Below, one piece after another: positions 42,822 to 45,253 of a DNA stretch of 64,000 nucleotides (position 1 is the stretch's first letter; the number at the start of each line of letters is the position of its first letter). The stretch covers positions 62,001-126,000 of the forward strand of contig JAJZZX010000001.1 of the NCBI GenBank assembly GCA_021797355.1, written 5' to 3'. Under the pieces are notes generated by a model, which had not been told where the DNA came from, did not search any database, and saw only the letters and a program-made list of their open reading frames with translations. The position numbers and the translations under genes are program-made. The DNA comes from Thermoplasmata archaeon. Lineage in GTDB: Archaea > Thermoplasmatota > Thermoplasmata > Thermoplasmatales > Thermoplasmataceae.

Positions 42822-43211
42822 ATGTTCAGGACTGTTAGACTAAAACTTCCTTGTGATCCCTCCCTACTGGAAACAGGAGTGCGATTCAGGGAAGCCTGTC
42901 AGAAAGTCCTGGATTATGGTTTTTCTGCACATACATTAAACAGTAACAAGCTCAACAGGGCAAACTATCATGACATCAGGAAGGGCATGCCCGCATTGCC
43001 CTCCGCTCTTGTCATAGGAAAATGTCTGTGATGATCCAGGCGGAACTGCCGGATATGGGGATGGAAAAAATCAGATGGTAATGTAAAGGCGGCAGGAATA
43101 GACAGGGGAATAAACAATATGGCAGTATTGTCAAACAACAGATTCTTCAATTCAGCACATCTGAGTATAAACGCCGGTCAAGATTTGTGCAAAATCAACG
43201 GTGCAGAATGA
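42822..43211 (+). pseudogene. IS200/IS605-type TnpB relic
   Basis: The first frame (MFRTVRLKLPCDPSLLETGV, NYHDIRKGMPALPSALV) is the N-terminal end of an archaeal TnpB. After a frame change near 43021 the RuvC-I motif appears out of place (GIDRGINNMAVLSNNRFFNS), followed by a stop at 43211. The middle part between them, and everything after, has been deleted. No TnpA or reliable end is seen. Confidence 0.65.
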
Positions 43212-43574
43212 ACATGGCCTTCTTTCCATTCTTAGCCTCTGCATCCTTGAGTTCTTTCAGTATCAACGAGAGGATTGCCTGTAATACATGTTAGCTCGGG
43301 AAAGTAGTTCAAGGACCAGATCAATGGCTGCAAGCACGTCATTGAGCTGTACAACATTTCTCATTAATGACTCCTTTCAAATGAGAGTTGTGTCTTCATC
43401 ATAGAGTTTTGTTAGTGACCTCTCACCTACAGTTCAGACAGAATCGTCCGTTTCACTCACCTCATACAATATGGAAATCTTTGTCTTCATCATAAAAAAT
43501 GTTTGCAAACTCGAAGTGTGATGGTATGCTTGAGAGCCCTGGAAAGTGAAAATTAACATCCATCAATTGTTATT
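43212..43574. other. Spacer, no gene recognised
   Basis: About 360 bases between the TnpB relic and the IS110 element. There are short broken frames on both strands but none that I can assign. Confidence 0.35.
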
Positions 43575-43608
43575 GTGGGATCACCGTTTAAGGAGGCGAT
43601 GATCCCAC
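43575..43608. repeat. 9-bp inverted repeat upstream of IS110 transposase
   Basis: GTGGGATCA (43575-43583) and TGATCCCAC (43600-43608) are exact reverse complements, with GGAGG in the 16-base loop. They lie just before the transposase start. This may be a subterminal end structure, part of a non-coding RNA or a translation-control hairpin. Confidence 0.5.
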
Positions 43609-43618
43609 GTATACGGGA

Positions 43619-44599
43619 ATGGATATACATTCAAAAATAATTGTATGCACCACTCTGGATGCAGATGGAAAAGTAGTGAGAAAGGATAGTTTTGAGAACA
43701 GTTTTGATAGGCTGCAGGAATACCTATCGCAGTTCCATGAGGGAGATAGATTCGTAATGGAATCAACGGGATTCTATGAACCGCTGTATGATTTCATAGA
43801 ATCCCATGGATTCAGCGTGAAACTGGCAAATCCCCTGAAGATCAAACTCATTGCGGAATCCAGGATGAAGAATGACGATATTGATTCAGATGTCCTTGCA
43901 AAGCTTCTGAAGAATGACTGGATTCCGGAATCATATGTTCCGCCAAGTGACATCAGGGAGATGAGGAGGATCGTAAGGACAAGAATACAGCTGAAGAGAG
44001 ATCTCACGAGGATGAAGAACCGCATTCATTTCGAACTCCTCAGGATGCATGTTGATTATGAAGTGAATCCCTTCACCTGGAAGGGAAGGGTATTCCTGAG
44101 GAACCTCAACAATAACAGGATTCTATCATATCTGGCAGTAATGGAATCCCTGGAGGCGGAGATCAGGAAGGTAGATTCACTCCTGGAAAGGTACACATCA
44201 ATTCCCGGTGTGATCAATCTACAGACAATCCCAGGCATCGGGCTCTTTTCTGCCCTTGTCATTTATTCGGAGATTGGTGATATTCAGAGATTCAGCGACT
44301 CAGGAAAACTCATATCATACGCTGGCATGGTTCCTTCAGTAAGGCAGTCATCCGATATAATACACCATGGAAGAATCACTTATCAGGGTTCAAGGTATCT
44401 CAGGTGGATCATGGTTGAGGCACTGCATTCCCACATGATCAATGATCCCGGCTCGACGATAACATCATTCTACAAGCACCTTGCAAAGAAAAAGGGGAAG
44501 AGCAAGGCCATAATAGCAGCTTCAAACAAGCTACTCAAGGCAATTTACTGGATCCTCAAGGACCATAGACCATATTACTCCAAGAATAACGCTCAATAG
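43619..44599 (+). CDS. IS110-family transposase (DEDD)
   Basis: A 326-aa protein, normal for the family. The N-terminal RuvC-like domain has MDIHSK (first Asp), ESTGFYEPL (Glu) and KNDDIDSDVLAKLL (the Asp pair). The C-terminal Transposase_20 domain has LQTIPGIGLFSALVIYSEIG, SYAGMVPSVRQSS and the Ser-bearing GRITYQGSRYLRWIMVEA. Everything needed for activity is present. IS110 recombinases are guided by a bridge RNA from a non-coding end of the element. The likely candidate here lies downstream (44638-44729). Confidence 0.9.
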   Translation: MDIHSKIIVCTTLDADGKVVRKDSFENSFDRLQEYLSQFHEGDRFVMESTGFYEPLYDFIESHGFSVKLANPLKIKLIAESRMKNDDIDSDVLAKLLKNDWIPESYVPPSDIREMRRIVRTRIQLKRDLTRMKNRIHFELLRMHVDYEVNPFTWKGRVFLRNLNNNRILSYLAVMESLEAEIRKVDSLLERYTSIPGVINLQTIPGIGLFSALVIYSEIGDIQRFSDSGKLISYAGMVPSVRQSSDIIHHGRITYQGSRYLRWIMVEALHSHMINDPGSTITSFYKHLAKKKGKSKAIIAASNKLLKAIYWILKDHRPYYSKNNAQ

Positions 44600-44637
44600 A
44601 GAGGCCTCGCTTGTGCAACGGATGGAAAGCATCGTTA

Positions 44638-44729
44638 GTGTGATTGAGGGAATCTGTTGGGAAATGGTCGGATTATCCATAGTGCCGGAGAGCGGCGGAT
44701 AGGTGTATGATCGGATATTTCAATCACAC
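44638..44729 (+). ncRNA. Candidate IS110/IS1111 bridge (seek) RNA
   Basis: Downstream of the transposase, GTGTGATTGA (44638-44647) pairs perfectly with TCAATCACAC (44720-44729). Inside, TATCC-atagt-GCCG-gagag-CGGC-GGATA forms a nested hairpin. This makes a roughly 90-base structured unit in the non-coding 3' end, where IS1111-type elements encode their guide RNA. Sequence folding by eye only; loop-to-target matching was not possible. Confidence 0.5.
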
Positions 44730-44769
44730 AGACAGGAGGAGGCTCTGAGTTGATTAAGAAAGCTTAAAG

Positions 44770-44791
44770 AGGCATCAATCCATTGATGCCT
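44770..44791. repeat. Perfect 10-bp hairpin before the CRISPR array
   Basis: AGGCATCAAT (44770-44779) and ATTGATGCCT (44782-44791) with a 2-base loop. It may be a terminator for the array, which I read as transcribed leftward, or an IS end. Confidence 0.5.
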
Positions 44792-44819
44792 ATAAAACGG
44801 TATACCTCTTAACATAGGT

Positions 44820-45253
44820 GTTTCAGAAGTACTAGTTAGTATGGCAGGATTCATAGATCGTTTGTCGTGCATCGTCCTCATCATGGTTTCAAAAGTACTA
44901 GTTAGTATGGCAGTATCCTGGGCTTTCCGTCCGGTGCGTCGATTCTCATTGTTGTTTCAAAAGTACTAGTTAGTATGGCAGTGTACTTCGTTTTTATTTG
45001 CAAAACTTAAATCGTAGGCTAGTTTCAAAAGTACTAGTTAGTATGGCAGTGTACATCTCGATCAGCTTCTGTGCTTCCATGTAAGCGACGTTTCAAAAGT
45101 ACTAGTTAGTATGGCAGGTGCTGCTGAAAAGGGCAGTACCTGGATAAGGATGGATAGTTTCAAAAGTACTAGTTAGTATGACAGCTGGTTGGATGGGTTA
45201 CTAAGAACTATATTAACTTAATGGTGTTTCAAAAGTACTAGTTAGTATGGCAG
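44820..45253 (-). CRISPR. CRISPR array, 7 repeats and 6 spacers
   Basis: The 28-bp repeat (plus strand GTTTCAAAAG...TATGGCAG) begins at 44820, 44886, 44954, 45022, 45090, 45157 and 45226. Spacers are 38, 40, 40, 40, 39 and 41 bp. Repeat 1 has one change (position 8, A to G) and repeat 6 has one (GGCAG to GACAG). On the minus strand the repeat ends TTTTGAAAC, the common 3' end of crRNA repeats. That, together with the degenerate repeat at 44820, places the leader at the right side. No cas gene is in the window. No spacer match inside the window was seen by eye. Confidence 0.95.

Follow-up and report, generated by a model that had tools for sequence, protein, structure and literature searches.

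A complete IS1111-like element of the IS110 family in a Thermoplasmata genome, with a predicted guide RNA in its 3′ non-coding end

The 64,000-nucleotide stretch of DNA analyzed here (the window), part of a Thermoplasmata MAG, contains a complete, 1302-bp element of the IS110 family on its plus strand. This archaeal element probably transposes in the manner of IS1111 elements, with its recombinase guided by an RNA derived from the 3′ non-coding end. RNA-guided recombinases of the IS110 family have been demonstrated experimentally in bacteria. The features of the element are listed in Table 1.

Table 1. Features of the IS1111-like element, with positions in the window.
Feature	Position	Strand	Basis
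Complete IS110-family (IS1111-like) element, GTGATGG...CATAGGT	43518..44819	+	Common ends, differing flanks, L040 site continuous in homologues
Left terminal extension GTGATGG, 7 bp	43518..43524	+	Copy comparison; rule from PMC11187229
Left subterminal inverted repeat TATGCTTGAGAG (relatives: TATGCTTAAGAG)	43525..43536	+	Copy comparison
Hairpin upstream of the recombinase gene, purine-rich AGGAGG loop	43575..43608	+	18-copy alignment
DEDD recombinase gene, 326 aa from ATG	43619..44599	+	PF01548, PF02371, NF033542, IS621 structure 8wt6
Predicted guide RNA (seekRNA/bridge-RNA type), region as modeled	44621..44765	+	Kept in 12 copies, covariance model R1
RNA segment TAGTGTGAT, 5′ arm; same sense as left-flank/left-end junction GAAGT/GTGATGG	44636..44644	+	Scan
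10-bp outer stem, 5′ arm	44638..44647	+	Perfect inverted repeat, fold
Central covarying hairpin, TATCC/GGATA plus GCCG/CGGC, 5-nt bulge	44674..44701	+	Pairing and double changes
RNA segment ATAGGTGTAT; same sense as right-end/right-flank junction CATAGGT/GTTTC; candidate donor/target guide	44699..44708	+	Scan
10-bp outer stem, 3′ arm; also antisense to left-end junction	44720..44729	+	Perfect inverted repeat, fold
Conserved hairpin AGGCATCAAT/ATTGATGCCT near right end	44770..44791	+	Copy alignment
TATA-like box TATAAAA, outward-facing, 29 nt before right end	44791..44797	+	Copy comparison; archaeal promoter role inferred
Right subterminal inverted repeat CTCTTAACATA	44806..44816	+	Copy comparison
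Right terminal extension GGT, 3 bp	44817..44819	+	Copy comparison

The ends of the element were set by alignment with five relatives (L038, L039, L040, L011, and L049) and by the gene that is interrupted in L040. Recombinases of the first four share 94%, 84%, 67%, and 66% identity, respectively, with that of the window. The stretch from NTGATGG to CATAGGT is common to the window and all five relatives, and the flanks outside it are unrelated. The preliminary description had bounded the element at 43575 and 44729; a distinct conserved hairpin that precedes the recombinase gene begins at the former, and the latter is the end of a stem that falls ~90 bp short of the right end. Subterminal inverted repeats in the relatives (TATGCTTAAGAG and CTCTTAACATA) have a perfect 7-bp core, TTAAGAG, and extend over 11–12 bp with one gap, while the left repeat of the window carries a single core change (TTGAGAG). 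In IS1111 elements, short extensions lie outside such repeats (PMC11187229), and the reading of 7-bp left and 3-bp right extensions in this case depends on the gapped, imperfect inverted repeat.

Insertion leaves no net target duplication, since the L040 site is continuous in homologous genes. Specifically, the left flank of L040 and the first bases of its right flank make up one continuous gene, and homologues from five other genomes extend as far as the insertion junction or across it, with no gap there. Non-coding sequence amounts to ~220 bp downstream of the recombinase gene and 101 bp upstream. Subterminal inverted repeats, 7- and 3-bp extensions, lack of target duplication, and a longer downstream non-coding end together follow the IS1111 pattern, as the preliminary description had anticipated in assigning the folded 3′ end to an IS1111-type position. 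In sister elements of two other genomes (G105 and G059), the non-coding ends are similar in length on both sides. The genome of the window holds one full copy of the element plus left-end remnants on contig C6, and no relatives were found in viral contigs.

On its left, the element is flanked by degraded sequence (43200–43481) that shares 74% identity with a region close to the end of contig C8 (L081), and this flank was ruled out as a CRISPR leader on that account. A seven-repeat CRISPR array (GTTTCAAAAGTACTAGTTAGTATGGCAG; 44820–45253) starts exactly at the right end of the element, and its repeat is found nowhere else in the genome. The orientation of this array is ambiguous, with Rfam placing it on the minus strand and a related array in L070 suggesting the plus strand. 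In L040 (G109:C43), the element adjoins another IS110-family gene, and the right-flank sequence also occurs beside related IS110 genes in other genomes, a recurrence that suggests tail-to-tail insertion at a shared site.

The recombinase gene is intact, as had been claimed, and its product scores above the thresholds that Pfam and NCBIfam set for IS110. Both the DEDD_Tnp_IS110 and Transposase_20 domains (PF01548 and PF02371) exceed their curated cut-offs, and the match to NF033542 reaches 217.7 bits against a cut-off of 140. IS621 (8wt6; E 5e-10) and ISCro4 are the nearest solved structures. Key residues were located by alignment to IS621: D6, D90, D93, and S248 are invariant among nine homologues, and E52 lies within a MEST motif of the window protein. 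The domains and DEDD-S residues are those of the IS110 superfamily, but the SG of the C-terminal G--P----S(t)G motif is absent. The window protein instead reads GMVPSVRQSS, with the Ser kept; close relatives have S-S or S-A at this position, and more distant archaeal homologues have S-G. In a tree with few references, long branches, and unresolved deep branches, the recombinase falls in its own well-supported archaeal clade, apart from IS4321/IS5708. The element is therefore best called IS1111-like, as its ends and downstream non-coding region are of the IS1111 type and its recombinase does not group with the small sample of bacterial IS1111 relatives. The recombinase frame is open upstream of the ATG at 43619 through T-Y-T-G (43599–43621), and the codons there (TAT ACN GGN) vary at third positions in a translation-like way. 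No standard in-frame start was found upstream of this ATG, and an out-of-frame ATG lies within the upstream hairpin.

The 3′ non-coding end has a conserved fold. The perfect 10-bp outer stem (GTGTGATTGA/TCAATCACAC) with a nested hairpin between its arms, as first described, is present, and the fold of this region exceeds those of shuffled controls in stability (z −3.1; as stable in 2 of 200 shuffles). Covariance across related copies, proposed earlier as a check, was evaluated with an alignment of 12 copies and is strong for the central hairpin: 96.3% of its cells are paired, 10 cells carry double changes, none of 500 shuffles is as good, and the signal is lost when partners are slid. The outer stem is real, but its covariation is modest and its support is restricted to close relatives and some others. 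It can be recognized clearly in the window, L038, L039, L049, and L052 and less well in L073 and L011, whereas L040 and L075 lack it. In a swap test, p was 0.03–0.045 for all copies and 0.46 without the window-like copies, so the case for an RNA is not rested on outer-stem covariation.

When 400 genomes of the class were searched with the covariance model, the RNA turned up in 10, every one belonging to the same order; in Rfam, no family matches it, CRISPR repeats being the sole matches. Three internally deleted copies (L075, L082, and L083) keep both ends and have lost most of the recombinase, which makes them candidates for non-autonomous (MITE-like) derivatives. The 3′ RNA region is complete in L075, but in L082 and L083 just its 3′ portion survives. 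In another locus (L097), a remnant of the RNA region is followed immediately by a tRNA-like sequence that ends in GGCCCTCCGCA.

Sequences resembling the insertion junctions occur within the RNA. They were sought with an unbiased scan that compared RNA columns with junction offsets in ~4000 pairings for each junction, with the right end itself left out of the RNA columns. The best match to the right-end/right-flank junction, at 44699–44708, agrees on average at 7.17 of 8 bases and tracks its own junctions better than swapped ones (p 0.0008–0.0018, before allowing for top-hit selection, among few, related copies). The base followed is right-flank position +2 (T or G). For instance, GGTGG in the RNA accompanies GG in the right flank of L049, L011, L058, and L075, and T at the tracked position accompanies T in the flank of the window, L038, L039, L073, and L052. 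L074 is an exception, as its guide mismatches the flank at the tracked base. The same segment showed no tracking of the circle junction (right end joined to left end) in the scan, so part of the signal comes from target DNA outside the element.

The best match to the left-flank/left-end junction, at 44636–44644, agrees at 6.86 of 8 bases, with weak tracking (p about 0.06). No antisense target match in the RNA was consistent across copies. Comparison of the loops with donor and target sites, also suggested in the preliminary description, yielded two segments that match junctions and track them, the left one weakly. The conserved CTGTTG of the RNA, which resembles some targets, was rejected as a guide, being identical in elements with other targets. 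Junction matching and tracking by the two segments make a guide (seekRNA or bridge RNA) role for the 3′ RNA likely.

Known systems share much of this organization. IS1111 elements with a seekRNA (ISEc11, ISKpn4, ISPst6, and ISPa11; PMC11187229) likewise have a ~200-bp downstream non-coding region, subterminal inverted repeats, 7- and 3-bp extensions, no target duplication, and a DEDD recombinase of ~330 aa. The RNA of IS1111 elements comes from the same 3′ position, and target-derived flanks are needed on both sides (PMC11187229; PMC11208160). In contrast, the window element is archaeal, its recombinase groups outside the sampled IS1111 relatives, and it and its close relatives have S-S or S-A instead of S-G in the C-terminal motif. 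IS1111 seekRNAs also carry matches to both target strands, a top-strand complement and then a bottom-strand match (PMC11187229), whereas the two best guide-like segments found here are both same-sense. The IS110 group, including IS621 (PMC11208160; 8wt6), shares a homologous recombinase and RNA segments that match the element ends, and differs in that its RNA lies upstream rather than downstream, its subterminal repeats are shorter, and its fold is different. It is conceivable, if doubtful, that these archaeal elements form a separate IS110-family clade in which the RNA reads the inserted-state junctions (left flank/left end and right end/right flank) through a pair of same-sense segments, and in which one member of the pair contributes to the outer stem. 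ISHvo10 is presumably archaeal, judging by its name. This diverged element (PMC11187229), likened here by description alone, also has long non-coding regions at both ends.

A quite improbable alternative is that the 3′ structure is a cis-acting end, consisting of DNA hairpins or protein-binding repeats, or of an mRNA 3′ stabilizer or terminator, and that the sequences resembling junctions are binding sites of the recombinase present in duplicate. The outer stem does carry left-end sequence on both strands, and the GCATCAATCCATTGATGC hairpin adjoins the right end. However, duplicated binding sites would not follow flanking target bases, as occurs at position +2; the central hairpin keeps its pairing while its sequence changes; and no terminator-like T run was found in the 3′ structure.

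Decay of the element, with an RNA that is no longer functional, is very improbable: the open reading frame is intact, key residues are kept, both ends are present, and the RNA is nearly identical to that of L038 despite different flanks, although the single genomic copy, altered left repeat, and degraded left flank are as expected of a decaying element.

The upstream hairpin is itself conserved and covaries modestly, with 90.9% of cells paired across 18 left ends and double changes at three pairs where 0.7 would be expected. That it supplies the functional guide in an IS110 layout, with the 3′ structure being secondary, is hardly credible even with these compensatory changes and with the description by Siddiquee et al. 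of elements in which both ends carry non-coding regions, because the hairpin is short, its stem and loop hardly vary among insertions at different sites, and the Shine-Dalgarno-like AGGAGG beside the start codon better suits translation control, its likeliest role.

In the preferred reading of RNA-guided transposition, the 3′ non-coding end would be transcribed into an RNA that is bound by the DEDD recombinase, and guide segments of this RNA would base-pair with target sequence and with the ends of the element. The segment ATAGGTGT would most likely read the right end along with the initial bases of the right target, and the 5′ arm AGTGTGAT the left flank plus the left end. The recombinase would join the element ends into a circle and reinsert it, with no net duplication of the target, where the DNA offers a short site similar to A-A-(G/C)-T / G-(T/G). 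A TATA-like sequence is found at equal spacing from the right end in 9 of 12 copies. Given how archaeal promoters generally work, a box so placed would initiate transcription at the junction, reading into the gene in the circle and into the flank in the inserted state. A promoter for the recombinase gene would thus exist only in the circle, where the two ends meet. In the window, transcription from it would start at the first repeat of the CRISPR array.

Bridge RNAs have already been predicted in most IS110 and IS1111 elements (PMC11208160), and the usefulness of the present element lies mainly in its archaeal host and candidate guide bases. Together with its relatives, it supplies specific archaeal cases, from Thermoplasmata, for which the ends are defined, the RNA covaries, and both candidate guide bases and target sites are available. 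Archaeal bridge RNAs or seekRNAs thereby become directly testable, including whether their guide layout differs. If true, two same-sense, junction-reading segments would represent a guide layout unlike that of the published IS110 and IS1111 RNAs.
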